64,000 bases of DNA from Cellulophaga sp. Hel_I_12. Lineage in GTDB: Bacteria; Bacteroidota; Bacteroidia; Flavobacteriales; Flavobacteriaceae. The position numbers and the translations under genes were made by a program. The notes beneath the pieces were generated by a model. The model saw nothing but the letters and a program-made list of their open reading frames with translations, was not told the DNA's origin and made no database searches. Below, in pieces: positions 7,294 through 47,970 of the stretch. Where the stretch lies: NCBI RefSeq assembly GCF_000799565.1, contig NZ_JUHB01000001.1, forward strand, positions 558,001 to 622,000, in the 5' to 3' direction. Within the stretch, counting starts at the first letter, position 1; every line of letters starts with the position of its first letter.

Positions 7294-9336
7294 TTATAGG
7301 GTGATATTTCTACCCCTCGGATATTTTATTTGAAATGAAAAGGTTTCCGAAGTTTCTTCATTTTTATCCAAACTTAATTTCCATGTGAGTAAGCCCTTTT
7401 CTTGATCATAAAGGGCATTGTTTGTACTAATATCGCTTACTTTAATTTCTTTATTTTCAGAAATGGGAATTCTATCCATAACCACCAGGTCAATAGCCAT
7501 TGGTTTGTTATTTTTAATGTCTATTTGATAGGTTCGATCTAAAATTCTAGTGTTTCCAGTAAAAGACTTACTTTTAAAATTCTTGTCTTGTTTTCTCATG
7601 ACTGTAATAGCCTTATCAATACCTAAAGAAACAGTCATTTCTTTTTTAACCGTATACGGATCAATAGTGGTTTTACCCGCATAGGTGCCACTAAAGTAAA
7701 TGTTTGCTTCGCCGGGCAATAAGTTTAGCTTTTCCCAATCTTTAAACGATGCCGTTAAAAATACATGTTCATTGATAATTGGTGCGGCAAAAAATTCGTA
7801 AGTGGCGTCTAAGGTGTAGGTGTTAATTTCTATAGCACTAATATCACCATTGGCACTAATAGAATAGGGCTTTTTAATCTCAAATTTAGTCTGTATTGCT
7901 TCTTCAACAGTGCTACTTTTTTTAGTGCTAATCACAATAATTCCGTTAGCCGCTCGGCTCCCATAAATAGCTTCGGATGATGAATAGTTTAAAACCTCGA
8001 TATGCTGAATTTCATCAGCATCTAAATCGCCTTCCATAAAATCATCGACCGGAACACCATCTATAATATATAATGGTTGTACCTCTTCTTCCATATAAAT
8101 CGATGATACACCTCTAATTTGAACGCCAGTTGCTCTTCCCTGCAACGAGCGAGAAATAGCATCATCTTGAGTCCCATAACCCATAACAACAACTTCATTT
8201 AATGCCTGCGCATCTTCTTCTAACCTTACATTTATCAGAGAAGCATAAATAGGAATTTCGTTTGTTTTGAATCCTACATACGAAAAAACCAACTCTTGTC
8301 CATTAGCAACGTTTAAGCTATACTTACCATCAAAATCCGAGCTAGTCCCTTGTGTAGTCCCTTTAACCAATACACTGCAACCAGGTAAGGGCTGACCTGA
8401 TGCATCGGTTACCATACCCGTAACCGTTTTTATACTAGGGTTATAGGCAAATTTTCTTTTTTCTATTTCAGAGCGATAGTTTTTTGATTGTCCGAAATTT
8501 AAATAATGACTTGCTAAACTAGGTTTTACGGCGTTATAATTAGGATTTCCTGTGGCAAGGGTTAAGGCCACATTGTCCCAGTTCTCTCCCGTTTTTTGAT
8601 ACACATGGGCTTTATAAGTTAAAGCTATGGCATGGTTTATTTTATTAGATTTTATATCGTAATTAGGAATCCAGCCAGCATCTTGTACATTATAGGTGAT
8701 GCCTAAATAAAGTGAAGTCGCTATAGGTGCATCAAACTTTATAGTGATTTCTCCCTTTGGTTCAGAAGGGATATTTTGCAGTGTTGAAAGCTGTTTCTGT
8801 AGGTTTACAGTATCTTCATTAAGAAGGTTTATTTTAAGGTTTAGGCTGAAAATTTCGTTTTTAATCTCCGTTATCCTATTTCGATAATACTGACTAATAG
8901 CTTTAATTTTATCTAAATCTAAAGCTTGTGTTTCAGAACTTACTAAGCGATTGGTATTCAACACCTTTTCTTCTTCATTTAAACCAAAGATGTCATTTTT
9001 TAATCGGCTAATATCTAAGCCTATTGCTTCAATTTGTTTTGTAAAAACCAGCGCTTCTGGACCTAAGCTAATGTTTTCTAAATAATTTAAGGAATACGAA
9101 ATGGCTTGAATAGAAACGCCATTTAAGCCCGAAATTTGAATACTACTTTCATCAATTTTAGGCGATAAAGCAGTTAGGGTAATTACCGAAGTACCTTGTG
9201 CTAGTTTTAAATGGGCCACTCTTGAAATATCAGCACTGTTCGCATAAAGCGTAACCGATTTTATTTTAGAGGGTATTTTATTTGCTGCAAAAAATAAGTT
9301 AGGTGTAAAAACAAGTAAGAATAAGAGCTTTTTCAT
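7294..9336 (-). CDS. MuiA/DUF4139-like exported protein with inserted CarboxypepD_reg and TonB-plug domains
   Basis: After a signal peptide of about 17 residues comes a DUF4140-like domain (about 25-120), a coiled coil (about 90-190) and then a DUF4139-type domain whose two parts (about 195-290 and 480-680) are separated by an insert. The insert starts at VTGMVTDASGQPLPG (about residue 304) as a CarboxypepD_reg-like fold and continues as a TonB-receptor plug (NEVVVMGYGTQ, then IDGVPVDD and NGIIVIST) to about residue 472. These two modules normally open SusC-type receptors. No receptor barrel follows. The DUF4139 family is called mucoidy inhibitor A, but its mechanism is unknown. It is probably periplasmic or attached to the outer membrane. 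Confidence 0.82.
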   Translation of the reverse strand: MKKLLFLLVFTPNLFFAANKIPSKIKSVTLYANSADISRVAHLKLAQGTSVITLTALSPKIDESSIQISGLNGVSIQAISYSLNYLENISLGPEALVFTKQIEAIGLDISRLKNDIFGLNEEEKVLNTNRLVSSETQALDLDKIKAISQYYRNRITEIKNEIFSLNLKINLLNEDTVNLQKQLSTLQNIPSEPKGEITIKFDAPIATSLYLGITYNVQDAGWIPNYDIKSNKINHAIALTYKAHVYQKTGENWDNVALTLATGNPNYNAVKPSLASHYLNFGQSKNYRSEIEKRKFAYNPSIKTVTGMVTDASGQPLPGCSVLVKGTTQGTSSDFDGKYSLNVANGQELVFSYVGFKTNEIPIYASLINVRLEEDAQALNEVVVMGYGTQDDAISRSLQGRATGVQIRGVSSIYMEEEVQPLYIIDGVPVDDFMEGDLDADEIQHIEVLNYSSSEAIYGSRAANGIIVISTKKSSTVEEAIQTKFEIKKPYSISANGDISAIEINTYTLDATYEFFAAPIINEHVFLTASFKDWEKLNLLPGEANIYFSGTYAGKTTIDPYTVKKEMTVSLGIDKAITVMRKQDKNFKSKSFTGNTRILDRTYQIDIKNNKPMAIDLVVMDRIPISENKEIKVSDISTNNALYDQEKGLLTWKLSLDKNEETSETFSFQIKYPRGRNITL

Positions 9337-9338
9337 GA

Positions 9339-9397
9339 TTGTTGGTTTTAAAGTTATGCTAAAGCTACTTAAGCTTTAAAAAACTTAAAACCAACAA
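9339..9397. repeat. Nested inverted repeat directly in front of the MuiA-like gene
   Basis: An outer arm TTGTTGGTTTTAAAGTT (9339-9355) pairs with 9382-9397 (AACTTAAAACCAACAA) with a single bulged base. An inner arm AAAGCT (9361-9366) pairs with AGCTTT (9372-9377). The structure ends two bases before the start codon at 9336. It has no T-tract in the direction of transcription, so it does not look like an ordinary terminator for the gene upstream. It could be a translational control hairpin or a protein-binding site. Confidence 0.7.
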
Positions 9398-9455
9398 TTC
9401 GTAAACGAGCCTGTTGCCTTAGGGAAGTAGTTCGTTGAACTCGTGTTCTTTATTT

Positions 9456-9860
9456 TTATAAAAATTTTGATTTTAATTCTGGAGTAGGAATCATACAAGC
9501 GTCTTTTTTACCATACCATGAATAGCGATTTTTCGCAATGTAATCATAAATGCTATTTCGAATTTTCTCAGGTATCCACTCAAAAACAGCTAAAACTGAC
9601 CAAAAACCTCCAAAAGATCTGCCTATTTTTAAGGCAGCAGTAGATTGTGTATAGTATGCCACGCCAGGTTCAATTAAAATAATGGAATCTAACTGCGCTG
9701 TATCAATATGGCGTTCTGCAATCATTTTTTGACCTATTTCACTTTGTAAGGCTGCAAAACGATAGCGATCAGTTGTATCGCGTTTAATAATAAATTGGAC
9801 AGCGTTATTGCAAAGATTGCAAACCCCATCGAATAAAATAATTTTTTTAGTTGCTGTCAT
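9456..9860 (-). CDS. DCC-family thiol-disulfide oxidoreductase (DUF393)
   Basis: The family signature is at the N-terminus, LFDGVCNLCNN, giving a CxxC pair at C14 and C17 after the DG that names the DxxCxxC family. The rest of the 134 residues matches the family in length and hydrophobic pattern, including FAALQSEIG. It probably acts in cytoplasmic or membrane-proximal thiol exchange; no substrate is known. It is 30 bases downstream of the MutS2-like gene on the same strand and likely co-transcribed with it. Confidence 0.88.
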   Translation of the reverse strand: MTATKKIILFDGVCNLCNNAVQFIIKRDTTDRYRFAALQSEIGQKMIAERHIDTAQLDSIILIEPGVAYYTQSTAALKIGRSFGGFWSVLAVFEWIPEKIRNSIYDYIAKNRYSWYGKKDACMIPTPELKSKFL

Positions 9861-9890
9861 ATTGGGTACCCTATTAAATGCTTATTAGGC

Positions 9891-12062
9891 CTATTTTTTC
9901 GCCTCTACCAATTCTAACTGATGGATGCTCACATTGGTCGTAAAAACACCATAATTCACTATGGCCTTGTTTTTTTCTAACTTATCAATACTACCTACCG
10001 CTTTACCATCAAGCATTCGAACTCGGTCACCGAGTTTAAAGGTAGGTTTAGGTTTGTTTTTTTCAACAAAGGCTTTTACCTTTTTTTCTTTTTTCTTTTC
10101 CTCTCGAATTACGTCTACCTTTTGAATAACTTCTTTTTCAACGGCAACTTTTTTCTGCTTTTCTATTTTTACCTGTTGCACCGATTTTTTTTGACGTTTG
10201 CTGTTTTCAGTCTCCACAATACGCAATAATTCAGAAACTAAAGGGCGTTTCTTTTTATCTTGAAAATACTTCAACGCCACATCATTCACCTTATTCCCCA
10301 AATAAATCATTCGTTGATTGGCATCATACAATTCCTGATAATTTTCTAATTTAACTTTTGTTCTTGCATTTAATTCTTCCAAACGCTGGGCTTCACTTCT
10401 TGCTTTTGACTCTTCCTCTTTTAATTTTGAGCCGGTTTTTTCCATAGAACTCCGCTCTTTTTGTAGTTTGGCAATAGTCGCATCAAAACGCACTTTACCC
10501 TTCTCAATTTTCTTTTTAGCACGGTTAATTAAACTAAACGGAATTCCGTTCTTTTGTGCTACTTCAAATGTAAAAGAACTTCCTGCTTGACCCAAAACCA
10601 ATTGGTAGGTTGGTTCTAATGTTTTGTCATCAAATAACATATTAGCATTGGTGGCGTTAGGCAATTCATTGGCTAATAATTTTAAGTTAGAGTAGTGGGT
10701 AGTGATGATCCCATAAGAACCTCTTTCGTAAAAAACTTCTAAAAAAATCTCCGCCAATGCACCTCCTAATTCAGGGTCGCTACCCGTGCCAAATTCATCG
10801 ATCAAAAAAAGTGTTTTATCATCGCATTTACGCAAAAAATAATTCATGTTCTTCAAGCGATAGCTATAGGTACTTAAATGATTTTCAATAGATTGATTAT
10901 CACCAATATCGGTTAAGATTCTATCAAACAAGCATACTTTACTACGTTCGTGAACAGGAATTAACAAACCACTTTGAAGCATCAACTGCAAAATACCCAA
11001 TGTTTTTAAGGTAATACTTTTACCACCTGCATTAGGTCCTGAGATGACAATTATTCTATTTTCTGGATGCAAGTACAAGGTCTGTGGAAACGTTTTTTCT
11101 TTTTTTCGCTTGTTCGTCAAATACAACAGCGGATGATAGGCATCACGAAGAAATAATTCGTTCTTATCGCTAATTTCTGGCATAATGGCCTCCATTTCAC
11201 CAGCGTATTTTGCCTTTGCCGCGGTAATATCTAAGTGTGCTAAAAATTCTTGATATAATGCTAATTCTGGGGTAAAAGGTTTAATATGTAAGGTTAATTC
11301 CCTTAAAATACGTTGAATTTCTTCTCGCTCATCAAACTCTAAATTATTTAATTGCCGACTGTATTGTAAAGATGCCTCTGGCTCAATATAAACAATACTA
11401 CCCGTTTTTGAAGTACCCATTACAGCTCCTTTCACCTTTTTGCGGTACATGGCTTTAACTGCTAGAACACGACGGTTATCCACCACAGATTCGCGAATTT
11501 CGTCTAGAAATTCTGAGGCTTGATACAGCGATAAAGCGCGACTAAAACTTTGATTTATTTTACCTTTAACAATATTTATTTCTTGTCTTATAATTCGTAA
11601 ATCGTTAGAAGCTGTATCTTTTATTTCTCCGAATCGGTCAATTACGGCATCGATATGCATTGGGATAGCCAAATTTAATTCTACCGCTTCCGAAGCTTCA
11701 AAAAGTAAAGGATAATAATCTTTAAATTTTTTTAAAAACTTTTTTTGTGTATTGACTGTGGTACAAAGACTCCCAATTTTTTTGAATCCACTTAATTCTA
11801 TCGTTGCATTATCTATTTTTAATAGTTTTAATTCTTGATGAATAGCATCAAAACCATGGTTGGGCACCCGGTTGTCATTCGTATAAGAAGCCACATATTC
11901 TGAAGTTTGTCCCAAATGAATCAAAATTTGCTCCTTTGATCTTAAAGGTCTTATTTCTAGGGCTTGTTCTTTCCCCAATTCTGTAGTACATCTGGCAGAA
12001 ATTTGATTTAAAACCGTGTAAAATTCTAAATCTTTTAATGTTTTTTCGTTAATCTTATTCAT
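9891..12062 (-). CDS. MutS2-like DNA-binding ATPase lacking the Smr domain
   Basis: This is a cytoplasmic MutS-family ATPase. The Walker A loop GPNAGGKSITLKT lies near residue 345, and the Walker B region LFLIDEFGTGSDPELGGALAE and later the ITTHYSNLK switch are in place. After a long charged coiled coil it ends with a KOW-like segment (FKLGDRVRMLDGKAVGSI). MutS2 of other phyla ends in a nuclease Smr domain, which is absent here. MutS2 homologues act on recombination intermediates or collided ribosomes. I place the start at the second in-frame ATG (MNKINEKTLKD), because a perfect -7 box TATCTTTG lies inside the 12-codon extension that the first ATG would add. Confidence 0.9.
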   Translation of the reverse strand: MNKINEKTLKDLEFYTVLNQISARCTTELGKEQALEIRPLRSKEQILIHLGQTSEYVASYTNDNRVPNHGFDAIHQELKLLKIDNATIELSGFKKIGSLCTTVNTQKKFLKKFKDYYPLLFEASEAVELNLAIPMHIDAVIDRFGEIKDTASNDLRIIRQEINIVKGKINQSFSRALSLYQASEFLDEIRESVVDNRRVLAVKAMYRKKVKGAVMGTSKTGSIVYIEPEASLQYSRQLNNLEFDEREEIQRILRELTLHIKPFTPELALYQEFLAHLDITAAKAKYAGEMEAIMPEISDKNELFLRDAYHPLLYLTNKRKKEKTFPQTLYLHPENRIIVISGPNAGGKSITLKTLGILQLMLQSGLLIPVHERSKVCLFDRILTDIGDNQSIENHLSTYSYRLKNMNYFLRKCDDKTLFLIDEFGTGSDPELGGALAEIFLEVFYERGSYGIITTHYSNLKLLANELPNATNANMLFDDKTLEPTYQLVLGQAGSSFTFEVAQKNGIPFSLINRAKKKIEKGKVRFDATIAKLQKERSSMEKTGSKLKEEESKARSEAQRLEELNARTKVKLENYQELYDANQRMIYLGNKVNDVALKYFQDKKKRPLVSELLRIVETENSKRQKKSVQQVKIEKQKKVAVEKEVIQKVDVIREEKKKEKKVKAFVEKNKPKPTFKLGDRVRMLDGKAVGSIDKLEKNKAIVNYGVFTTNVSIHQLELVEAKK

Positions 12063-32463: not shown

Positions 32464-33012
32464 ATGAAAAACCTTTTTATAGCAAGCTTATTTTTACTTA
32501 TCGCTTGTGGAAGCACCCAAAAGACAATAGCGCCAAGTGCTGAAAGTAGCGCTTTAGACCAATTACTAGCCATTAAAAACTTTAGCATTAGCGCTGACTG
32601 GGCGTACCCAAATGCTACAGCGAGTATGGCAGCCCTTTCGAATACAGGGATATTGGGTGTTGGAAATACGGCCAATGCTATTAATTTAATTGGAAATCCT
32701 AATTTTTTAAAAGTAGAAGGGGACAGCATCTCTGCCTTTTTGCCTTATTATGGAGAACGACAAATGGGCGGTGGGTATGGTTCAGATAATGGTATTGAGT
32801 TTAACGGAATTCCGGAAACCTATAGCCTTAAAAAAGACGAACAAAAGCAGCGCTACAGTATGGAATTTACCATCAGTGGTAATACTACCGAAGTCTTTAA
32901 TGTGAATATAGATTTTTTTCCCAACACTACCGCGCAAATAAATATCTTCAGTTCACAGCGCAGAGGAATTCGATATCAAGGCAATGTAACTGCTCTTAAG
33001 AACGAAAAGTAG
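32464..33012 (+). CDS. DUF4251-type lipoprotein
   Basis: A lipobox (FLLIACGS) is followed by a domain matching Bacteroidota DUF4251 proteins: FSISADWAYPN, then DSISAFLPYYGERQMGGGY and a final strand pattern with INIFSSQRRGIRYQGNV. It is lipid-anchored in the envelope. Function unknown. Confidence 0.8.
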   Translation: MKNLFIASLFLLIACGSTQKTIAPSAESSALDQLLAIKNFSISADWAYPNATASMAALSNTGILGVGNTANAINLIGNPNFLKVEGDSISAFLPYYGERQMGGGYGSDNGIEFNGIPETYSLKKDEQKQRYSMEFTISGNTTEVFNVNIDFFPNTTAQINIFSSQRRGIRYQGNVTALKNEK

Positions 33013-33134
33013 GGCTCATCTTTAAACATCCTCAAGAACTCAAAAAATAGTTATGAGCACTTTGTAGTAAACAGTACTCATGGTGAAAAGTTTTTTTTGA
33101 CAATACTAGGATAAAAAATGCAAACTATTAAAAT

Positions 33135-33599
33135 ATGAAAGAAACAAACGAGTTTTATATGGAAAGAGCTATCGCATTGGCGGCTGAAGGTATGAATGCC
33201 GATGCAGGAAGACCTTTCGGTGCCGTGGTCGTAAAAGATGATGAAATCATTGCAGAAGCCTATAACCAAGTAACTACTATGAATGATCCCACAGCACACG
33301 CAGAAATTGTGGCGATGCGTAAAGCCTGCGAAAAGCTCAATAACTTTGAATTAAGAGATTGTATCATTTATACCTCATGTGAACCTTGCCCCATGTGTTT
33401 GGGAGCCATTTATTGGTCTCAAGCTAAAATGGTTTATTATGGGTGTAGCCGCAAAGACGCTGCTGCCTATAATTTTGACGATCAGTTTATCTATGACGAG
33501 CTAGATAGGGACATGAAAGACCGTAACATTCAATTTGTACAACTCGCTCAAAAGAAAGCGGTAAAAGTGTTTGAGGCTTGGGGACAACGAAATAGCTAA
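33135..33599 (+). CDS. Nucleoside/guanine deaminase (cytidine-deaminase fold)
   Basis: This is a zinc-dependent cytoplasmic deaminase. H55 and E57 (THAEIVAMRKAC region) and C85/C88 (CEPCPMCLG) form the metal site. The ending DDQFIYDEL with KAVKVFEAW resembles guanine deaminase of the GuaD type rather than the tRNA adenosine deaminase TadA. It converts guanine to xanthine if so. Length 154 is right for the family. Confidence 0.88.
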   Translation: MKETNEFYMERAIALAAEGMNADAGRPFGAVVVKDDEIIAEAYNQVTTMNDPTAHAEIVAMRKACEKLNNFELRDCIIYTSCEPCPMCLGAIYWSQAKMVYYGCSRKDAAAYNFDDQFIYDELDRDMKDRNIQFVQLAQKKAVKVFEAWGQRNS

Positions 33600-33606
33600 G
33601 TTACAT

Positions 33607-33634
33607 GTTGTTGGTTGCTAGTTGTTGATTGATG
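33607..33634. repeat. Heptamer-periodic tandem array
   Basis: Four 7-base units (GTTGTTG, GTTGCTA, GTTGTTG, ATTGATG) lie a few bases after the deaminase stop codon. The period matches the arrays at 17.7 and 62.2 kb. Confidence 0.55.
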
Positions 33635-33689
33635 TAAAAGTATAATACCAACAGGACCTTTTCAATAATTCTATTTTACATAATATAAA

Positions 33690-34010
33690 TTATAGAACAA
33701 ATGATAACAATTAGCGAATAGCGCCTTTGGGCGATATTTGATATAATATCAGATATAACAACACGTAAGTGTTTTATATCGGCAGATATTATGTCAAAGG
33801 TAATTATGGCTTCGTTAGAATAATCAGTGAATAATTATCCAACGCTTGCCAACGCCAAAATAAAAGCTAACCTTTTTGCTCTTATTATAAATCTCTTATT
33901 CGGTAAAATGCACGTAACAAAAAATTTTAGACGATTACTCACGTCTTTAATATTGTTTTAGACGAGTTCGTAAATGCGCTACATTTCTCGTGGATTGCCA
34001 CAAGAGCATA
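33690..34010. repeat. Mosaic copy of the dispersed intergenic repeat
   Basis: Bases 33690-33830 share a module with 43750-43850 (AGCGCCTTTGGGCGATATTT against AGCGCTTTTGGGTGATATTT, then the GATATAAT and GCAGATATAAT stretches). Bases 33934-34010 (AATATTGTTTTAGACGAGTT onward) match the left half of the copies at 47.7 and 50.0 kb. No ORF is present. The gap continues to 34248 without other visible content. Confidence 0.6.
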
Positions 34011-34248
34011 AATTTTAATAAATCGACTTTTTAGGAGATTCACAAAAACATTTGAAGTTTCTGCAAATAAATAAAGATGTGAGTAAATATAAATTTCTAA
34101 GCACTTATTATATTTAGAACTTCAATTATACGTAATATTTATAAATGAAATTATGAGTTTTAACTACGGTTATCAAAAAAATCAACAATGTGAAAGGTTC
34201 AGTATTTGGCATAAAACCTATTAAAGCGACCCATAGATAATACTTAAT

Positions 34249-37050
34249 TTATTCTAAATACTCTAAGAGAGCATAAGCGACTTCGTAAGCTACATCATTT
34301 GATAATGGGTTCTCAAATAACGTAGGAATTTGAGCTACATCTTGAATCCAGTCAAATATTTCAACCCCATCTTCTTCGAGAGCATCATCATACCATGTTC
34401 TTAAATCATTTCTCAAAACTGTTCTAACTCTGGTTAATAGATTTCTTGTATTCACTAAATGATATTCTTCTGAAGGAATACTTAAAATAAATTGAACTGG
34501 TTCAAAATTTCTAGGTCCAATTGAGTCTAACTGTCTGATTAAAAATAAGTCCTCCAAAATAGTATAATTTTGTCCATTGATAGTAATAGCCTCTTCAATA
34601 TCGATAAATCTGCTTAAATCTTTAGTCAATTGTGTTAAACCATCTAGATTATGATCTACCCAGTCAGTCCAATTATAACTAGATTTAGATTCGAAAATTG
34701 ATAATATAACGATTCCTGTTCTACCATCTTCCATTTGAAATGTAGAGTATAGTATTCCATCTGTGAGTTGTCTACCATTACCAGAAACTAAATGGGTAAA
34801 TATAGGCTCACTAAGTTCTAATCCTGAATCTGCGATAGCAATATTCACTCTTGCCACTTTAGCAAATGCTGCTCTTCTAACTAGATCAAACCAAGGCATT
34901 TCAGTTCGTAATGCCTCTTGCACATAGCCCTTAATAGAATGTGCTCTATTATTTAAATAGGCAAGCCGCTCAACTCCATCCAACTGTCTCAATGTAGTTA
35001 AAACGTTGTCACTTACAAGCCCAAACAATTCTCGTAATTTCCCCCTTCTAGATGATGATTGGAATAAACGTGTTATAAGATCTGTGAGGTTTTGACTACC
35101 AAATAATGGACTGATTCTTCTAATTATCTCATCATACAATTCTATTTCAATCCTTCTATTTGTTAATCTAGCGATTGGAACGTCAGGTATAGCATTCTGC
35201 AAAACATTTGGATTACTTCTTGAGATGTTAGCGTTTCTTGCAAGTCTTGTTGAAATCCCGAAACCTATTACATGCCCAAATAATATAAATATAGATTGCT
35301 CTCTAAGATCAAATACTTCAGCTATTGCTAATTGCTGATCAATGACAGCAAAACTATTTAATTCATTCCTCTGATTATTTTCTATGAGTAATAAAAGATC
35401 AATTCCTAATGCAATAATGCCCTCTACCAAAATAGCTAAAATTGTAGTGGGAAATACAGTTCCAATGGTAATCCCTATACCTAAAGAAAAGGCGGTTAAT
35501 CGATTTTCATTAGTCCAAAACGGCTCCCTATCTTCAATAAAATACAAACAATATTCGTACAATGGACTGTTCGAATAATTTTCTCCGAGTACAGGCTGAA
35601 GTAGATTTTTCAAAGCAGACTGTGTAACGAAGGAAATTGATTTTAAGTCCCCAATTTCTGCTATACTATTTGGACGCCATATTGAATTCAATTTTTGGCG
35701 AATTAATGCTAATGAATTTCTTAATGGTCTGAACACGTAATTTCTAAGTATAGTTTCCAATTGTCTTTCCGCTTCTTCTGGATTCGATCTTCTAAGTTCT
35801 AGAATTGTTGCAATCTGGCCAAGATTTAATTTTTTTTGTAGAACGAATATTACTGGAAACTTACCATAAACAATTAATTTCAATTCTCTAAATGATACTG
35901 AAGCAGAATCCAAAGCACGCCTTTGTGCTTCATTATTTCTGTTTTGTATCAATCGCATATTGAATCTGGTATGTGAATTATTTTGCCATGGTAGGGAGTT
36001 TGGTCTAAACTTAACAACAGGTCTATCAGGGTCTTGGGGAATATAAGGAGCTACATTAGAGAAAAATGGAAATATGTATGCTAAATTATTTAAAAGTTTC
36101 ATTCTATCAGAACCTACGTAAGACGTAGATACTTGTCGATGAATAGCACGGAGCTGACCAAATACACGATGAGCTTCATCCGAAAGTGCATTGAAAACGA
36201 GTCTCTTTATAGCTTCTTTTTGGGTTCTATTTAATGAATCGTGAAACCCACCAGGTCTAACACTAAATATTAAATAAGGTCCAGCAGATTCTTGTGTATA
36301 GTTAAAACTATTTTGAAGGTGATAGTATTCATCTCTAATTTCTGAAAACCGAGTGTGCGCTAATAATAATAAATCTCGATCCAATCTTTCAGTTCTATTG
36401 TGTCTAGTATCATTTCTTACATTTTCAGCTGCAAAAGTTTCTTGAGTTTCATTAATCGGAGTAGTATTTTCATTTGGTATATTGGTTTCAGATTCTAATG
36501 ATTCCCAATCTTCCGGAATGGAACGGTGCCAAATTGAGTATCCTGTAATAAATCTACTCATGTTTCTTTCTCTTAGTAGCTGTCGGTCACCGGTTGTAGT
36601 TATATGTCGTGGATCTCTAACCCAACTACTAACTATTTGATGAATATCATAAATAAAAGATGTTACTGTTAATAAACCCAATGTACGTTCTCTAACCATT
36701 TGATTAATTAGATAAGGAGAATTTGGATACCTAAATTCTAGATGGTGATGCAGCTTTGATCTAAAAAAGGATTCTATGCTTTGGGCTTCACTTAGATTCC
36801 CATTATCAGCAAGGTGAATTATAATTTCAGAATAGGTATTCCATTGGACTGTAGCTCTGGAAACAACATAAGATCGTGACCATGTTGGGTCTAAATTTAT
36901 CCATTCTCTATCAATTGCTGCTAATGTGACTATCCCACCAAATGGTAACAATAAATAATTAATTCTTTTTCCTGGGAATTGATGTGAAGAAATTTCCTTA
37001 TAAAGAATACCAAGTTGATTTATATAATTTATAAAACTTTGTGTAGCCAT
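34249..37050 (-). CDS. Unrecognised 933-residue protein with hydrophobic core and possible PD-(D/E)XK-like C-terminus
   Basis: I recognise no named family. There is no signal peptide. The N-terminal 500 residues are helical and rich in N and R. Two hydrophobic stretches, about 515-555 (IGITIGTVFPTTILAILVEG) and 583-600 (FILFGHVIGFGI), could enter a membrane. Near the C-terminus D764 (LTDGIL) is followed after two strands by E787-S-K789 (ILSIFESKSS), with an upstream helix containing E-M-P-W. That order resembles the D...ExK active site of PD-(D/E)XK nucleases, but this is by eye only. It starts nine bases after the 858-residue gene and is certainly in the same transcript. Effector toxin and structural partner are both possible. 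Confidence 0.7.
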   Translation of the reverse strand: MATQSFINYINQLGILYKEISSHQFPGKRINYLLLPFGGIVTLAAIDREWINLDPTWSRSYVVSRATVQWNTYSEIIIHLADNGNLSEAQSIESFFRSKLHHHLEFRYPNSPYLINQMVRERTLGLLTVTSFIYDIHQIVSSWVRDPRHITTTGDRQLLRERNMSRFITGYSIWHRSIPEDWESLESETNIPNENTTPINETQETFAAENVRNDTRHNRTERLDRDLLLLAHTRFSEIRDEYYHLQNSFNYTQESAGPYLIFSVRPGGFHDSLNRTQKEAIKRLVFNALSDEAHRVFGQLRAIHRQVSTSYVGSDRMKLLNNLAYIFPFFSNVAPYIPQDPDRPVVKFRPNSLPWQNNSHTRFNMRLIQNRNNEAQRRALDSASVSFRELKLIVYGKFPVIFVLQKKLNLGQIATILELRRSNPEEAERQLETILRNYVFRPLRNSLALIRQKLNSIWRPNSIAEIGDLKSISFVTQSALKNLLQPVLGENYSNSPLYEYCLYFIEDREPFWTNENRLTAFSLGIGITIGTVFPTTILAILVEGIIALGIDLLLLIENNQRNELNSFAVIDQQLAIAEVFDLREQSIFILFGHVIGFGISTRLARNANISRSNPNVLQNAIPDVPIARLTNRRIEIELYDEIIRRISPLFGSQNLTDLITRLFQSSSRRGKLRELFGLVSDNVLTTLRQLDGVERLAYLNNRAHSIKGYVQEALRTEMPWFDLVRRAAFAKVARVNIAIADSGLELSEPIFTHLVSGNGRQLTDGILYSTFQMEDGRTGIVILSIFESKSSYNWTDWVDHNLDGLTQLTKDLSRFIDIEEAITINGQNYTILEDLFLIRQLDSIGPRNFEPVQFILSIPSEEYHLVNTRNLLTRVRTVLRNDLRTWYDDALEEDGVEIFDWIQDVAQIPTLFENPLSNDVAYEVAYALLEYLE

Positions 37051-37059
37051 TTGAAAAGC

Positions 37060-39636
37060 TTAATCTGTAACATCTTTCTCCCAAACCCAACTTCCTACAG
37101 GATTCTCTTTCCACTTAGGCAAACCGTCTTCTTTTTTAAGCTTAATCAAACTAGTAGGTAATCGCACTTCCCAAGGCTTCCCAACTGGAATAGGCTCTTG
37201 TTCAGTATTGCCAGACTGCTCTCTAATTTCATCTACAATGGACAGGTAAAGCGGGTCTTCTATTGACGGAACCCCTTCTCCACCCCAAACATTGCCAGTT
37301 TCCATATAGTGTGCAACTACAGCTTCAAATCCTAATCGTACTGGTAAAACCAAACGTGCGGCACTCGCTTGCAAAAATTGCTGGTATTCATAATTGGGGT
37401 CATCTAATTTAAATTTTTTATCCCAACTTTCCTGTTTAGACCAAAAATAAGGATATAAGGCATATTGCATTTGTGACCATTCAAAAGCCTGCTCAAAAAA
37501 ACGAATGAAATCACCTTGTTTCTTTGCTTTTACTCGATCTATTTTTGGAGGTTTTTCATCCGCATCATCAACAACTATTGGAAAATCTGTATTAAATCTA
37601 GTTGTGTCATTTGAAACATCATCAGGAGAAAACGACAAATTATCTGTAAAAAGCGATATAGCATGTTTTTTAAGCTCTGTTAACATTATTTGTTTTTGTT
37701 TGCTTGGTGGTACTCCATAGTTATTCTTTTCAAAACTTTCTTGTGCTTTTCTATCCGCATTATATTGTGCTAATTTATTTTCATATTCCATTAACCGATC
37801 TTGATAAGCCGCTTGAAGAATATCATAAGTTTCTTGTTGCCAATCTCTAATAATAACTTCAGAAGGCTCGCAGATTATTTCTCCCTTAATTATATGGTTA
37901 TTGGTTTCCCTTGCAAAATAGCCAATTGATAATTTATTGTTTGCATTTGCTATAAAATCATCAGGAAGTTCAATATTTTTGGGTTCATTAAACTTCCCAG
38001 AAAAGGCAACATGGTCTTTATCTTCTGCTGTATAGGTATTTCGAAGGTTTTCAACTCCATTTCCAGAAATCATTTGAAAATATGAAGAGCCAACCAAGAA
38101 ATCAAATTTCAAGCCCTTATGCCTATCAGTGTAGCCAATAACACTTAATTTTATTTTTTTGGGGATATAACCATCTTTAATTTCAATATCAAAACTTTTT
38201 GGAGGTGCCATATAGGTAGCACCTTCCCCGAGAATAGCATCTGGTTCAGAATTTTCTTTAGGTCTTGAATACGAAAAGGAAAAAGTCATAGCCTCTGGTG
38301 GTGATTTGACGCCTTGAGCTTCATATAAGGAAACATAATTTGAGTAATGGTTTTTATCGCCAAATAAAAATGTTTCACCCGTAGCTTGATAATAACCTTG
38401 TTTTAATTTGTATCCGATTTGATAGAAATGAATATCCAATTTTGGCGGTTGGATTAGGCTACTATTGGTAATGTTATCTCCTATATTGTTCAAATACCGC
38501 AAATATGAAGCAGGCTCTGGAATCATCAAATCAAACATTTGTCGCTGACCATAGTTGAATACTTGGGCTTGGTAAATTTTATCTACAAATTGATAGATGC
38601 CGCTAATTTGTTCTAGCTCATTAGTTGCACCTTCAATAAGCACATTAGTAAACGAGTGTAAATCTTTGGTTTCATTTTCCTTAATAATCTTGGTTATTCG
38701 CTCTGTGCGAATACGTTCATTTACCTTTTCCAAGGAACGATCCATAATGTCCTTGGCATATTCAGAAGATGATTTTGTTTCGGTAGTTTCAGAAGTATCC
38801 AAGCTATAAGCCATATTTGCAGCTATCGTTGTTGGACCATATTTTCCTGATACAGACAAATCTGTGCTAAATTTTTGGTCTTCTTGTATTGTTTTTGATG
38901 TTTCACGATTCATTTCAAACCGTTCGGTTGTCTCAGATTCTTTTTCAGTTTCAACACTTTTTTCATTTTCATAGATAAGTGTTTCTTCAAAACGGTCTAA
39001 AAAACGATGTTCCCTACTTCGCGTTTCACCTTTCATTACGTTTTCTATATGAGCAATTTCAGTTTCCTCGTAGCGTAATAGATGCTGTTTTACAACTAAT
39101 AAATCAGCAACACCAACAGATTTGATAAATGGTTCAGTAGCTTTGCTTAAACCTAATAACCTAATATTATGCAAAAGGAACTTTTGAAATAGTTTGTTTA
39201 CCCTAGCTCTTTCAAGAACTTGATACATCACATATAATTGCAAGTTAGTATCGGACAATTTTTCATAAGAACTGTAATTTGAAAAATAAACAAGCTCTGA
39301 GAGCATATTTAAGTCTTTTTCAAAATCTTCTTCCAGATTATTATAATTTGAAGTGAGCATTTGAAAAACAGAATTGTAAAACTGACCAACAGTAGATTTT
39401 GTATTATTACTATAGTTATTTAATGCAGCTCTGACTTCAGTACCTAAACCTAATTTTTTAATAGTAAAATTTAAATTGCTTAAGTATGTATTTGCCAATT
39501 CTATTTTTTCTTCGGTGGTTTTATTCTTAGCAGCCTGAATTGTATCGGTTACCTTTACTGGGTAAGATTTTAAGATATTACCACCTCTTAATTGTACAAA
39601 TCTGAAAATATCGTTTAGTGAGCTTTGATTTTTCAT
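37060..39636 (-). CDS. Unrecognised 858-residue protein of a two-gene unit
   Basis: There is no signal peptide or membrane span. Four parts are visible. A helical N-terminus (1-190). A segment very rich in E, T, S and K (about 192-332, with TERFEMNRETSKTIQEDQ and a small beta insert DLSVSGKYGPTTIAANMAYS) that continues as coiled coil. A motif YGQRQMFDLMIPEPASYLRY at about 360-380, followed by a strand-rich region. A C-terminal aromatic domain (712-845) with EWSQMQYALYPYFWSKQESW and ending GKPWEVRLPTSLIKLK. I have an unverified impression that similar PEPA-motif proteins occur elsewhere in bacteria without known function. It is the first gene of the pair. Confidence 0.75.
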   Translation of the reverse strand: MKNQSSLNDIFRFVQLRGGNILKSYPVKVTDTIQAAKNKTTEEKIELANTYLSNLNFTIKKLGLGTEVRAALNNYSNNTKSTVGQFYNSVFQMLTSNYNNLEEDFEKDLNMLSELVYFSNYSSYEKLSDTNLQLYVMYQVLERARVNKLFQKFLLHNIRLLGLSKATEPFIKSVGVADLLVVKQHLLRYEETEIAHIENVMKGETRSREHRFLDRFEETLIYENEKSVETEKESETTERFEMNRETSKTIQEDQKFSTDLSVSGKYGPTTIAANMAYSLDTSETTETKSSSEYAKDIMDRSLEKVNERIRTERITKIIKENETKDLHSFTNVLIEGATNELEQISGIYQFVDKIYQAQVFNYGQRQMFDLMIPEPASYLRYLNNIGDNITNSSLIQPPKLDIHFYQIGYKLKQGYYQATGETFLFGDKNHYSNYVSLYEAQGVKSPPEAMTFSFSYSRPKENSEPDAILGEGATYMAPPKSFDIEIKDGYIPKKIKLSVIGYTDRHKGLKFDFLVGSSYFQMISGNGVENLRNTYTAEDKDHVAFSGKFNEPKNIELPDDFIANANNKLSIGYFARETNNHIIKGEIICEPSEVIIRDWQQETYDILQAAYQDRLMEYENKLAQYNADRKAQESFEKNNYGVPPSKQKQIMLTELKKHAISLFTDNLSFSPDDVSNDTTRFNTDFPIVVDDADEKPPKIDRVKAKKQGDFIRFFEQAFEWSQMQYALYPYFWSKQESWDKKFKLDDPNYEYQQFLQASAARLVLPVRLGFEAVVAHYMETGNVWGGEGVPSIEDPLYLSIVDEIREQSGNTEQEPIPVGKPWEVRLPTSLIKLKKEDGLPKWKENPVGSWVWEKDVTD

Positions 39637-39796
39637 ATGGTTTATTTTAGAAGAAAATGAATAAATCCTATAATGACTTTTAAAAAAGTATGGTATTGAG
39701 ACTTATGAGTATAAGTTATTACATTTCGTGAAACAGTCAGCCGTTAATGTACTACTAGTAAGAAATAATGTACGATTTGTAGGAAATTACAATCCA

Positions 39797-40340
39797 CATA
39801 TATTTATTCACAAGAATCTTACTGTCATTTGATGGTATTTATGCATCTCATTCGTCGATGTCAATTCCCTCCTATGGTTCGGCTCTGCTTACCACAGGCT
39901 AGTCGCATAAAAAGTGTTTACTCGCAACTCCTATTTGATAAAAAAGAGCTTGTGAACCCTATAGAGTTTATTCGCAAGGGTATTATTGTTATAGTGTATC
40001 TCATAATTTCTACCAAATTCATTAACATGGTAGAAAAAGCTTTTGGTATAATTTTTTCAAGAAGCTGAAGTAACAACTTTGCCGGCGCAGCAACCCGATC
40101 GAAAAACAAAAGGTCTACAAGACCTTTCATTTTTATGCCGTACCCAAAGCTCAAGGTACCCTTCGACTATGCTCAGGACAGGCTCCACGCAGAACATTAT
40201 AGTACATTTTGCATTATTGGTTTAGCCAGTGGCTGAAGCAATAATCAAGAAGGTTGGCGCGCTGGAGAAATTCTACAGAAGTTTAACCTATGTAGCTATA
40301 CTTGCATTATGTAAAATATCCCAGAAACATTGTATTTCAT
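39797..40340. repeat. Dispersed intergenic repeat, copy A (full length)
   Basis: This copy of about 545 bases aligns end to end with 49858-50400. Shared landmarks in order are CCTCCTATGGTTCGGCTCTG, TTCGCAAGGGTATTATTGTT, AACAACTTTGCC, a hairpin, TACCCAAAGCTCAAGGTACC, TTCGACTATGCTCAGGACAG, CCAGTGGCTGAAG and TATCCCAGAAACATT. The hairpin AAAGGTCT-ACA-AGACCTTT is at 40109-40127 with a T-rich tail. No ORF of substance is encoded. Confidence 0.85.
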
Positions 40341-40621
40341 TACAATAATACGAACTTGGGACATTAAACTATTAAGCGGTTTGCTTCGCAGCGTTTTTAA
40401 AAAATAATTATACTATCGCAATACTACAAGAAGCTATTATAATCGGTTTATCAAAATGTTTTTATTAATTTAAGGATCAGTTTTGACCTTTACATTAATT
40501 TCGGATAGAGAATAAACAACTAAAAGCACATGTCTCAAATACTAAATTATCTATTGAAAACCGCTAACCAAGCTGATAAAATTCTTCAGACGTGGAGCTA
40601 CATATAAGTGAAAAATCAAGC

Positions 40622-40788
40622 GAAACCTTAAAATGGGTTCATATTTCAATACCCAATGCAAAGCGAAATTTTGTGAGTGCTTCCCATAAAATCAAAAAAA
40701 ATAGCCTCAATTTTTTGTAAATGAATTTGCCAACAAACGTAACCGAAGATACTTCGGAGTAAAAATATTTGGTAGACTGGGGATATGA
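40622..40788 (+). pseudogene. Remnant of an IS1595-like transposase C-terminus
   Basis: One frame gives LKWVHISIPNAKRNFVSASH and, after a one-base shift near 40716, VNEFANKRNRRYFGVKIFGR. Together these match the end of IS1595/IS1016-type DDE transposases (WVH...NAKR...H...L.EF..K.NRRY.GE.LF.RL). Catalytic regions upstream are missing or unrecognisable and stop codons interrupt the frames. It is a decayed insertion next to repeat copy A. Confidence 0.62.
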
Positions 40789-40900
40789 CTAATTACAAGT
40801 ATACAAAAAACACTATCTTAGTTTTTAAGATTTAGTTCTTAATACTTTATAGAAATAGTATGATGTAGAATTTAACAACCTAACCAATAACTAAAATAAC

Positions 40901-43645
40901 ATGAAACAAAACTTCGTATGTATTAGCATAGTATTTACTGTTTTCTTTAGTACTATAAGTACAGCCCAAGATAAAGTACTCCAATTAGAAGATTATAGCA
41001 AATGGAAACGTATTGTATCATCAAAAATCTCACCTAATGGCGAGTGGTTTACTTATGGTCTTAGACCAAATGGAGGTGATGACACTTTATTTGTTAAAAA
41101 AACAAGTGCAAAAACATCAGATTTTACATATCGTATCCCTCATGCAAGTTCACCCTCATTTTCTAGCAATAGTAAATGGGCAGCATACCTTATTTCGCCA
41201 TCAATAAAAGCCACTAAAGAGCTAAAAAAGTCAAGTAAAAAAGTATTCAGAACAGCTGAGTTAAGAAATCTCATTACTGGTGATTCTATCCATTTTAAAA
41301 GAGCAACGTCGATGACATTTTCTGAAGATGGAAAGTATTTTGCGATATCTCTAGAAAAATCAGAAAGTGATAAATCAGAACACAAAGGGCAAGATTTGAT
41401 AGTCGTAGATTTAACAACGCTAGCTAGCTTAAACTTTGGAAATGTTTACGAATTTGCATTTAATAAAAACTCCAGTCACTTAGCATATACTATTGATGCA
41501 GCTGAAATGGTTGGTAACGGTTTATATGTATACGACCTTAATAAAAATAAACTACAAAATTTAGACAGTGATAGAAAAACATATAGCAGTCTTATTTGGG
41601 ACGACGCTAACATACTAAAGGAAGACTGGGGTAATAAAGGCACTCAAATTGCAGTATTAAAAGGAAAAACAATAGATACGTTAGCGCAAAGAGACAATAT
41701 GCTTTTAACAGTCTCTAACGTGCATCAAAACCCAATTAAAAGAACTTTAAATGTGAATGAAAAAACCAATTTCCCGAATAACTTTGTAATTAGTGAGAAG
41801 GGACGCTTGCAATTTAGTAATGATGGAAGTTTTGTTTTGTTTGGAATTAAAGAGCAAGAGGAAAAAATGAAGATGGATAAGGATACTATTGCCAATCTTG
41901 ATGTTTTTCATTGGAATGATGAAACTATTAATTCTGTACAGAGAAGTAGGGAAAATGACAACCGAGACTTTACATATTGGGCATCATTCCAATTTAATAA
42001 TAATGTATTTACTAGGCTTACAGATGATAGTATGCGTAATTTATTGTTCTCTAGAAACTCAGAGTATTGGGTAGGTAGCGATCCAAAACCTTACATTAAT
42101 GATGTAAACTGGGGTATATCTCCTGAAGATTTGTATCGTGTTAACTTAAAAACTGGAAAAAGAGATCTTATAGTTAAATTAATCAAAAGACCTTTAGGCT
42201 ACTCTCCTGAAGGAAATTACTACGCTGTACAGAAAGACACAGCTATTCATATAATAAACTTAGCAGACAATACACTAACCAATATCTCTAAATCTGCTGA
42301 TGTTAATTTTATGAATTTAGAACATCCCTATCCTCATGAAAAACCACCTTATGGTGTAGCAGGATGGACAAAAGATGGTACTTCTATTATCTTAAATCAT
42401 AAATATGATTTATGGTCATTAAAATTAGATGGCTCAGTTGTTAAGAATATAACACAGGGCTTTGGAGACCAAGAAGAAACAAGATTTAGATACCAAAACC
42501 TAAACCCTAATGCCCCATATATAGACACAAAAGAACCACTACTTTTAAATGCCTATGGAGAATGGACAAAAAAGGCAGGTTTTTATGAATTAAAAATAGG
42601 TGAAAAACCGAAGTCATTACTTTTTGATGACTATGCATTTACAACAATTATGAAAGCAGAAAAGTCTGATAATGTTGTGTTCACTAAAGAATCTTTTGTC
42701 GAGTTCCCAGATTATTATGTTAGCAATACATCTTTTAAAAAACCACAAAAGTTAACTGATGCTAATCCTCAGCAAAAAGAGTATAAATGGGGTTCTAAAG
42801 TATTAATAGATTATACCAACAGTAAAGGAGAAAAATTACAAGGTACACTTACGCTTCCTGCAAATTATGAAAAGGGGAAGAAGTATCCTATGGTTGTGTA
42901 TTTCTACGAGAAAATGTCTGATAGACATCATCGTTATTATATGCCTACTTATGATGACCGTCCACATGGTTCTACTTATGCTAGTAATGGTTATTTATTC
43001 TTTCAACCAGATAATGTTTATGAGGTAGGAAAACCAGGCACAAGTTCTTTAGACTGTATAACATCTGCAACTCAGAAAGTAATTGATTTAGGGTATGCAG
43101 ATCCCAAAAGAATAGGATTACAAGGACACAGTTGGAGTGGTTATCAATCTTCATTTATACTCACACAAACAGATATGTTTGCATGTGTCGTAACTGGTGC
43201 ACCACCTACAGATCTTGAAAGTTTTTACAATAATATTTACGGAAACACAGGAACCAACCATAATGGTATTATGGAAATTGGACAAGTAAGAATGGGAAGA
43301 GGTGTTACACCATGGACACATCGTGAAATCTATCAGCGAGAAAACCCAATGTTTCATGCTAAAAACATTAAAGTACCATTTATGATATTGCATGGAACAG
43401 CTGATGGAGCCGTAGATTGGACGCAAGGACTTGAGTTTTACAACGCAGCAAGAAGACTAGGCAAAGAAGTGATTTTCTTATCTTATCCTGGAGAACCACA
43501 TCATTTAAGTAGAGAAGCCAATCAAAAAGATTTTCAAATTAGAATGAAACAATATTTTGACCATTATTTAATGGATAAAGAAATTCCTAAATGGATGGCA
43601 GATGGTATACCGCACCTTAAAAAGCTTTATGATAAAGCAAAGTAG
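40901..43645 (+). CDS. S9-family peptidase (prolyl oligopeptidase/DPP-like), secreted
   Basis: A signal peptide of about 22 residues (FFSTISTAQD) leads into a beta-propeller domain (about 30-620) and a C-terminal alpha/beta hydrolase (about 640-914). The catalytic triad is S744 (LQGHSWSGYQSS), D835 (ILHGTADGAVDW) and H867 or H868 (GEPHHLSRE). Such enzymes remove dipeptides or cut after proline in periplasmic peptides. Length 914 is at the long end of the family. It lies alone between repeat-filled gaps. Confidence 0.92.
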   Translation: MKQNFVCISIVFTVFFSTISTAQDKVLQLEDYSKWKRIVSSKISPNGEWFTYGLRPNGGDDTLFVKKTSAKTSDFTYRIPHASSPSFSSNSKWAAYLISPSIKATKELKKSSKKVFRTAELRNLITGDSIHFKRATSMTFSEDGKYFAISLEKSESDKSEHKGQDLIVVDLTTLASLNFGNVYEFAFNKNSSHLAYTIDAAEMVGNGLYVYDLNKNKLQNLDSDRKTYSSLIWDDANILKEDWGNKGTQIAVLKGKTIDTLAQRDNMLLTVSNVHQNPIKRTLNVNEKTNFPNNFVISEKGRLQFSNDGSFVLFGIKEQEEKMKMDKDTIANLDVFHWNDETINSVQRSRENDNRDFTYWASFQFNNNVFTRLTDDSMRNLLFSRNSEYWVGSDPKPYINDVNWGISPEDLYRVNLKTGKRDLIVKLIKRPLGYSPEGNYYAVQKDTAIHIINLADNTLTNISKSADVNFMNLEHPYPHEKPPYGVAGWTKDGTSIILNHKYDLWSLKLDGSVVKNITQGFGDQEETRFRYQNLNPNAPYIDTKEPLLLNAYGEWTKKAGFYELKIGEKPKSLLFDDYAFTTIMKAEKSDNVVFTKESFVEFPDYYVSNTSFKKPQKLTDANPQQKEYKWGSKVLIDYTNSKGEKLQGTLTLPANYEKGKKYPMVVYFYEKMSDRHHRYYMPTYDDRPHGSTYASNGYLFFQPDNVYEVGKPGTSSLDCITSATQKVIDLGYADPKRIGLQGHSWSGYQSSFILTQTDMFACVVTGAPPTDLESFYNNIYGNTGTNHNGIMEIGQVRMGRGVTPWTHREIYQRENPMFHAKNIKVPFMILHGTADGAVDWTQGLEFYNAARRLGKEVIFLSYPGEPHHLSREANQKDFQIRMKQYFDHYLMDKEIPKWMADGIPHLKKLYDKAK

Positions 43646-43698: not shown

Positions 43699-43850
43699 AG
43701 TTACCTTTCGACTATGCTCAGGACAGGCTCCACACGGTACATTATAGGACATTTTACAACAATTAGCGAAATAGCGCTTTTGGGTGATATTTGACATAAT
43801 TGCAGATATAATGGCTGCCAGACCTAAATCGATAGTAATTATGTAAAAGC
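43699..43850. repeat. Truncated and recombined copy of the dispersed repeat
   Basis: The core TTCGACTATGCTCAGGACAG and ACATTATAGGACATTTTAC are retained, but the copy then switches to the AGCGCTTTTGGGTGATATTT module also seen at 33.7 kb. From 43851 to 44274 I see only AT-rich non-coding sequence. Confidence 0.7.
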
Positions 43851-46599: not shown

Positions 46600-46965
46600 C
46601 CATTCCACACACATTGACTCATAAGATTTTTATTGTTTTTAAAAGTGTTTATGAAACTCGCATAAGGGTCGGTTTACTTCACCTTGTGGAAGAAACATTT
46701 TAAAATAAATTTTTTAAAGAAACTTTAGAAACAACTTTGCCCGTGCGTCAACCTGCTCAAAAAAGAAAGATTCTCATCTCTTTTTTATGTCGTACCCAAA
46801 GCTCAATTTACCCTTCGACTATGCTCAGGACAGGCTCCACGCGAAACATTATAGTACATTTTGCATATTGGTTTAGCCAGTGGCTGAAGCAATAATCAAG
46901 AAGGATGGCGCGTTTGCGAAATTCTACAGAAGTTTAATCCAAGTAGCTTTAATGCTCAACTAAAA
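46600..46965. repeat. Dispersed intergenic repeat, copy B (diverged left part)
   Basis: The right half, from AACAACTTTGCC through TTCGACTATGCTCAGGACAG to CCAGTGGCTGAAGCAATAAT, matches copy A closely. The left half is shortened and diverged. The hairpin loop region is changed (AAAGATTCTCATCTCTTTTT) but can still form a weak stem. Confidence 0.75.
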
Positions 46966-47640: not shown

Positions 47641-47970
47641 ATTCCCATTCCATACACATTCCCACTTCGCTCCTATCGTCATCTCGACTTCACTCGATAC
47701 AGGCTAGCATAAAAAGTATTTATTTACAATGTTAATATTGTTTTAAAGGAGTTCATGCACCTCGCAAACTCGATGTCATTAACATGGCAGAAGAAACTTT
47801 TAGAATAAATATTTTTAAGAAACTTTTGTAACAACTTTGCCAGCGCATCAACCCGCTCAAAAAACTAAAGGTCTACCAGACCTTTCATTGTTATACCACC
47901 CAAAGCTCAAGGTACCCTTCGACTATGCTCAGGACACGCTCCACGCAGAACATTATAGCATAAATGATAA
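47641..47970. repeat. Dispersed intergenic repeat, copy C (right end missing)
   Basis: From GGCTAGCATAAAAAGTATTT to GCTCAAGGTACCCTTCGAC it follows copies A and D. It carries the perfect hairpin AAAGGTCT-ACC-AGACCTTT at 47867-47885. It stops after ACATTATAGCATAAATGATA and lacks the CCAGTGGCTGAAG part. That end resembles the start of the module at 33.69 kb. Confidence 0.75.

Follow-up and report, generated by a model that had tools for sequence, protein, structure and literature searches.

A conserved gene family with changing, in part toxin-like, partners and its candidate two-gene toxin unit in Cellulophaga sp. Hel_I_12

The usual mark by which polymorphic toxins are identified is a trafficking domain, located at the N-terminus and fused to the toxin, and binary toxins such as anthrax PA and iota Ib combine one conserved pore or translocation protein, which has an alternating hairpin, with separate enzyme partners. 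In the current analysis we describe two adjacent genes, referred to as A and B, in a stretch of 64,000 nucleotides (the window) of the genome of Cellulophaga sp. Hel_I_12, which is a single contig of 4.03 Mb and 99.99% complete; the window covers positions 558001-622000. On balance we lean towards the pair being a two-gene toxin unit, in which A would be a conserved carrier without a signal peptide and B an interchangeable cargo of the polymorphic-toxin type. A separate and widely transferred carrier family that has no Pfam or NCBIfam model would mark polymorphic toxins in trans, so that unrecognised effectors could be found downstream of A. If the carrier role is true, the family would provide an added delivery route, occurring in hosts that have an outer membrane, in hosts that lack one and in an archaeon.

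Polymorphic toxin systems (Zhang et al. 2012, PMC3482391) comprise variable toxins with exchangeable C-terminal domains. Relatives of A are alike in having exchangeable C-terminal toxin domains, immunity-like open reading frames (ORFs) and orphan cassettes, and differ in that A, the conserved part, stands as a gene of its own and matches no Pfam or NCBIfam family. The association of one conserved carrier with many unrelated toxins is found in the A family, in which not every partner is a recognised toxin. TANFOR is described as an N-terminal domain of toxins, most of which have a signal peptide and are proposed substrates of the type IX secretion system (T9SS) (PMC7073777). The likeness to the A loci lies in the occurrence in Bacteroidetes and in the EndoU and SUKH components, whereas A lacks a match to TANFOR and extends into other phyla. 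NCBIfam gave no match to TANFOR for A or B at E≤10, nor for any of 35 A members at E≤0.01; the domain, TIGR02542, is held in NCBIfam. The MuF/Bxa polymorphic toxins of prophages have a conserved MuF domain, proposed to be capsid-targeting, fused to the toxin (PMC11699363). They share with the A loci the prophage-borne variable toxins and small immunity ORFs, whereas A is a gene of its own. Between A and the binary beta-pore toxins no sequence similarity was found, and the fold match to Ib is weak.

The two ORFs of 858 and 933 residues are located where an earlier note on this DNA had placed them, on the minus strand with A first and B beginning nine bases after it, and the statement of that note that no named family is recognised in either holds. 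In Pfam, NCBIfam, PADLOC and PHROGs B has no match at E≤10, and A has sub-threshold matches only (Pfam, E 0.11 and 0.13; one PHROG of unknown function, E 0.02; none in NCBIfam or PADLOC at E≤10). Searches of PDB sequences gave no match for B, a best E of 0.27 for A and, with a profile of A, nothing usable (best E 0.16). The 35 aligned A members have no convincing Pfam or NCBIfam domain, one chance-level family from each database being matched by one member each. In searches of open-licence PubMed Central papers, no family like A is described in the titles and abstract beginnings retrieved, subscription papers and preprints being outside this scope.

A is single-copy in the host genome. A scan of genomes identified four relatives, in Pseudozobellia (the nearest, 58% identical in the alignment), a deltaproteobacterial metagenome-assembled genome (MAG), Neobacillus and a Bacteroidota MAG, and with a profile of five sequences A is detected in 15 of 394 other genomes of the phylum, Bacteroidota, or 16 of 395 when the window's own is counted. 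Fourteen plasmid-collection records encode A, from Sinorhizobium (4), Ensifer (2), Streptomyces (2), Tsukamurella, Chryseobacterium, Cupriavidus, Nonomuraea, Aulosira and the archaeon Natronorubrum, and the same counts are obtained with the Neobacillus A as query; the Nonomuraea record, at 11.85 Mb, is chromosome-sized. The relatives in these records are annotated as hypothetical protein or are unannotated. Four distinct A loci are present in viral contigs.

In the tree of the A core the A of the window groups with Pseudozobellia and then with Sinorhizobium, an alphaproteobacterium (support 98/93), the deltaproteobacterial MAG groups with Tsukamurella (100/100) and a Bacteroidota A with a Streptomyces A (100/100). 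These cross-phylum groupings, in a midpoint-rooted tree with five long branches and a bootstrap that is not fully settled, indicate horizontal transfer. In what follows L-numbers denote loci of A relatives and G-numbers genomes, G000 being the host of the window. Alignment, tree and neighbour counts leave out the A of L069 (two ORFs), the truncated first copy of L005, and L006, apparently the same protein as L002; L082 and L083, found later, stand outside the tree and the downstream-ORF, conservation and alternation counts. The A of L069, whose partner has an EndoU domain, is split over two overlapping frames (7372-9696 and 9633-10847), and may therefore be inactive or a sequencing error.

The partner that follows A changes from locus to locus. 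A same-strand ORF of at least 250 residues starting -150 to 450 nt from the end of A is found in 27 of 34 relatives, and its upstream counterpart in 11 of 34, both being counts of mechanical ORFs. Among the seven misses, L017 has a 482-residue gene according to the annotation of the record, and in L025, L060 and L068 the large gene comes after a gene of 122 residues. When 30 partners including B are compared by BLAST, 15 groups result that are not linked to one another at 1e-3. The largest has 14 members, which are similar in their front and middle parts and diverge at the C-terminus; two groups have 2 members each and 12 consist of a single protein. Partner lists (27 proteins for hydropathy, 30 for grouping) were chosen by hand, in some loci as the second or third downstream gene, and the grouping list is without L015, L017, L019, L021, L053, L055 and L062.

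Several partners have toxin domains. Over the Pfam cut-off are EndoU (L069), a papain-fold Gln_amidase (L063), Tox-MPTase4 (L065), Patatin (L005, L018) and DUF6402 (L070); below it are EndoU (L061), Tox-MPTase4 (L068) and Ntox4 (L017). Most of the remaining neighbour proteins, among 40 compared with Pfam, have no informative match. Neighbours that do not resemble toxins include an impB-type DNA polymerase 2.8 kb downstream of the A of L062 and SIR2-like and SMC-like genes downstream of that of L015. Strongly hydrophobic segments are present in B and in 14 of 27 partners in other loci, 13 of these 14 being within one related group.

Nine small ORFs following toxin-like genes were compared with Pfam. 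SUKH-1 is over the cut-off in L067, where the ORF comes after two downstream genes, and Imm35-like (L063) and DUF5412 (L070) matches are below it; L058 has chance-level matches and the five others none. The viral contig L083 has, in order, A, a fibre-like gene, a toxin-like gene of 744 residues, a small ORF and a row of short toxin C-termini. The linker that lies within the main toxin also opens two of these cassettes, with 88% identity between the two and 59% and 65% identity to the toxin; some of the C-termini in the row are similar to toxin ends at other A loci (L065, L068, L025). This arrangement is the layout of spare cassettes of polymorphic toxins.

Taken over the A family, the comparison of sequences gives good support to a carrier-plus-cargo toxin unit with polymorphic cargo, and this reading is carried over to the pair in the window through the family membership and position of A. 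B is read as the variable half because A recurs with other partners. The pair itself was found nowhere else, which taken literally is a ground for refutation named in the earlier note: B has no relative in the plasmid records, the phage records, the viral contigs or the 394 other genomes of the phylum, and in a single comparison it is unrelated to the protein beside the Pseudozobellia A (best local E 0.37). The division into a carrier or delivery protein and an effector, proposed in the earlier note, is thus borne out in part, by the conservation of A, its changing partners and the several toxin domains; co-occurrence holds for A with other partners and not for A with B.

The AlphaFold2 model of A (25 sequences; mean predicted local distance difference test score, pLDDT, 60.4; predicted template modelling score 0.40) has a helical N-terminal part (residues 21-154), long predicted strands at 170-198, 203-226, 307-330 and 345-373, and a helix at 593-638. 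By block, pLDDT is 38-80 over 170-226 (ten-residue blocks) and 37-83 over 307-373. The insert between the long strands, 227-306, is charged and of low confidence in the model. Conservation extends to the charged segment, at about 220-306, and to the aromatic block of the YPYFW type at the C-terminus, to both of which attention had already been drawn. Of the motif IPEPASYLRY, which had been called conserved-looking, 'IPEPASYL' is kept in the closest relatives; among the 35 members P373 and P375 do not vary, and E374 is almost invariant. A conserved short motif of the FRFV type is found at the N-terminus.

The membrane-inserting beta hairpin of beta-pore toxins is known to show an alternation of the kind seen in A. 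Residues 254-284 of A, which were tested first because the insert had caught the eye, have a mean z of 1.40 and are positive in 33 of 35 members. In the subsequent scan, of residues 161-858 in 19 hand-picked representatives of the 35, the top places among 104 segments go to the overlapping 251-278 and 257-284 (each with a mean z of 1.61 and positive in 19 of 19), the representatives being related to one another, so that this is not a test on independent samples. The loop 251-284 is 13-17% charged against 36-42% in its flanks; as it is modelled with pLDDT below 50, its shape is not predicted. Its alternation, low charge and location between long predicted strands suggest a candidate membrane-inserting beta hairpin.

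A Foldseek search of PDB with the model of A gave nothing under E 1e-3, the best match being BcsB (1.2e-3) and the iota Ib pore ranking fifth (E 5.3e-3, probability 0.28, root-mean-square deviation 39); in a viral library a single match fell under 1e-3 (probability 0.33). At the level of domains the likeness is clearest for residues 448-592, a common jelly roll and also the part mainly tested in a second look at the fold (VIA). Structure prediction, which had been proposed for both proteins, was less informative for B, whose single-sequence model has a pLDDT of 33.7. B has two adjacent 19-residue segments at 520-557 with Kyte-Doolittle means of 1.62 and 2.2, a candidate hydrophobic hairpin. 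Of the nuclease-like tail formerly attributed to B there remains a by-eye pattern resembling PD-(D/E)XK (LTDGIL at 762 and FESKSS at 786, giving D764...E787-S-K789), for which the model, at that pLDDT, is unusable as a test.

From these features we infer the most likely course of events. A and B would be made in the cytosol and let out on lysis of the producer or by another route; A would bind the target surface, perhaps through its variable beta-sandwich, and oligomerise, and the loop 251-284 would insert as a beta hairpin, A forming or triggering a pore. B, with its hydrophobic hairpin and C-terminal enzyme, would enter through the pore and act perhaps as a nuclease. More tentatively, and with more doubt than confidence, we suggest that A may represent a new class of stand-alone translocon, a signal-peptide-less and lysis-released beta-barrel pore of bacteria and archaea that would carry interchangeable polymorphic toxins into other cells without a secretion machine. 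By a crude hydropathy measure, a strongly signal-peptide-like start is absent from all A members, with L021 and L003 as possible exceptions. Genes of phage type occur near A in some relatives: an M15 endolysin in L016, L054, L059 and L083 (67-88% identical to one another; PHROG endolysin at 1e-30 in L016, L-alanyl-D-glutamate peptidase 2vo9 at 8.4e-24 in L083), and, judged by eye, fibre, holin, endolysin and spanin look-alikes preceding A in L082, whose endolysin-like protein has no PDB sequence match. Such endolysin and fibre-like neighbours suggest release by lysis in those hosts. Export by T9SS is thought unlikely, A and B lacking a strongly hydrophobic N-terminus by the same crude measure, for which there was no positive control.

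The distribution of contractile machines bears on two other explanations. Among 17 A-bearing genomes of the phylum, VipB is found in none and TssC in 8, so that VipB alone would have misled; Phage_sheath_1C matches in 9, in 8 over the cut-off, the ninth match (G115) lying in its TssC gene. None of the three models matches in G000, G087, G368, G431 or G072, and judged by these models neither a type VI secretion system (T6SS) nor a phage-type sheath is therefore required across the A family. Contractile-injection genes, proximity to which was raised in the earlier note, were not found in the host genome with the three models; in viral contigs a tail-sheath gene stands near A in L054 (PHROG tail sheath, 5.5e-41) and a near-identical sheath protein, identified by eye, in L083. 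In our estimate A is unlikely to belong to a phage-tail-like particle (a tailocin or an extracellular contractile injection system) or to serve as its toxin-loading adaptor, the stand-alone copies then being remnants or relying on a particle encoded elsewhere. These sheath genes, the sheath matches in 9 genomes, the tail-spike-like neighbours in L064 and L070 and, by eye, the fibre-like genes before A in L082 would fit such a particle; the other 8 genomes, including the single-contig host of the window, have no Phage_sheath_1C match, by a single sheath model that the type in L054 and L083 may escape, and three queries found no A relative in 50,697 phage records.

That A is instead a cytosolic adaptor or chaperone, which stabilises toxins and passes them to a secretion system of the host, T6SS in some, appears improbable. 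It would agree with the lack of a strongly signal-peptide-like N-terminus in most members by the crude measure, with TssC in 8 of the genomes and with the FRFV-type motif, whereas 9 of the 17, the host included, have no TssC, and A is present under envelopes as unlike as those of Neobacillus, Streptomyces, Tsukamurella and a haloarchaeon; its size, beta-sandwich and alternating loop would also better suit an extracellular protein. We give very little credence to an intracellular anti-phage defence system with A as sensor and B as effector, the other possibility formerly raised. An accessory location and a variable effector-like partner are what it would predict, and defence-like genes are found close to two relatives (SIR2-like and SMC-like ones near L015, restriction genes near L022), whereas neither protein has a PADLOC match at E≤10 and the relatives have immunity-like genes, orphan cassettes, endolysins and fibre-like neighbours.

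Several observations weigh against the carrier-plus-cargo toxin unit that we favour. B itself has neither a recognised toxin domain nor a relative, no lysis gene was recognised by eye near the pair in the window, and no immunity-sized ORF adjoins B, there being no ORF above 44 residues before the next gene; immunity to B may be encoded elsewhere, or the target may be something that the producer is not. Orphan cassettes were seen in the relative L083 only and none in the window. Three loci (L015, L055, L062) are without a large downstream partner within 450 nt, and the partner is an amidase-like gene in L004 and a fibre-like gene in L054. The count of hydrophobic segments has no background control, the model of A is modest with no pore-forming toxin as a reliable fold match, and T6SS or phage-type machines, given TssC in 8 and Phage_sheath_1C in 9 of the 17 genomes, could serve some hosts of A.

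Table 1. Coordinates of the two genes, their segments and the associated features (window positions, or positions in the named locus)
Feature	Location	Coordinates	Strand	Basis or remark
Gene A	window	37060-39636	-	ORF, 858 aa; conserved carrier/translocon candidate, undescribed family
A residues 170-226 (GVADLLVVKQ...AHIENVM), well-conserved pair of long predicted beta strands	window	38959-39129	-	AlphaFold2, conservation
A residues 251-284, low-charge beta-alternating loop, pre-stem-like	window	38785-38886	-	alternation scan
A residues 307-373, second pair of long predicted strands, ending at IPEPA motif	window	38518-38718	-	model, conservation
A residues 448-592, variable beta-sandwich, jelly-roll-like	window	37861-38295	-	
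A residues 701-858, conserved aromatic C-terminal part (RFFEQAFEW, YPYFW, ARLVLPVR)	window	37063-37536	-	conservation
Gene B	window	34249-37050	-	ORF, 933 aa; candidate cargo or effector, no relative found
B residues 520-557, hydrophobic hairpin candidate	window	35380-35493	-	Kyte-Doolittle
B residues 745-815, PD-(D/E)XK-like pattern	window	34606-34818	-	by eye
Deaminase-like gene	window	33135-33599		name by eye
Peptidase-like gene	window	40901-43645		914 aa; name by eye
28-nt repeat	window	40159-40186, 43704-43731, 46811-46838, 47915-47942	+	outside large ORFs
YFENGD-type proteins	L024	13472-18421		
YFENGD-type proteins	L064	5418-7658, 4703-5461		
YFENGD-type proteins	L070	5998-7584		
YFENGD-type proteins	L067	15490-16329		
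YFENGD-type proteins	L005	1374-2267		
120-123-aa gene	L025	10017-10385		
120-123-aa gene	L060	8446-8814		
120-123-aa gene	L068	11415-11783		
120-123-aa gene	L059	7972-8334		
120-123-aa gene	L057	7990-8361		
Large gene pair near A	L003	3656-4717 + 4714-6309		first gene is the one counted as A's partner
Large gene pair near A	L005	16250-17542 + 17555-19051		

Other genes recur around A. An N-terminal motif of about 30-50 residues, of the YFENGD type, is common to proteins found repeatedly near A; among these, PHROG matches are to a tail spike for two and to a minor tail protein for one. A related patatin-like gene is located near A in L016, L054, L059, L064 and L070 and, by eye, in L083. A conserved gene of 120-123 residues with a GS-R...KDWDV pattern, nucleotidyltransferase-like by eye, lies between A and the large partner in five loci; its copy in L025 has no Pfam match. 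Two large genes of unknown function near A are common to a deltaproteobacterial MAG and a Bacteroidota MAG (22% and 28% identity). Upstream of the Neobacillus A is encoded an 803-residue protein (L004, 6443-8854) with a Het-C match over the cut-off.

The setting of the pair in the host genome is that of an accessory stretch, as had been supposed: in six sister genomes, compared over about 10 kb each side of the deaminase-like gene (ORFs of at least 90 aa, E≤1e-10), window genes are common only to the left, and A is found in none of 17 other species of the genus searched. The long gene-poor gaps described before are present, one of 649 nt between B and the deaminase-like gene and one of 1264 nt, with a longest ORF of 79 residues, between A and the peptidase-like gene. 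Repeats had been said to surround the pair. Those listed within 33000-41500 are short, mostly two-copy and at chance expectation; on one side only, four copies of a 28-nt sequence, with 0-1 mismatch and a mean of 0 in shuffles, form a dispersed repeat of the accessory stretch. Rfam has no match within 33000-41500, and promoter-like sites are not in excess (31 against 36.3 in shuffles); terminator-like sites number 8 against 3.8. The peptidase-like protein has a near-full-length relative only in G013 (34%) among 17 sister genomes, the others matching only its C-terminal part or having no match, and a second copy of its gene, at 31%, is encoded in the host genome.

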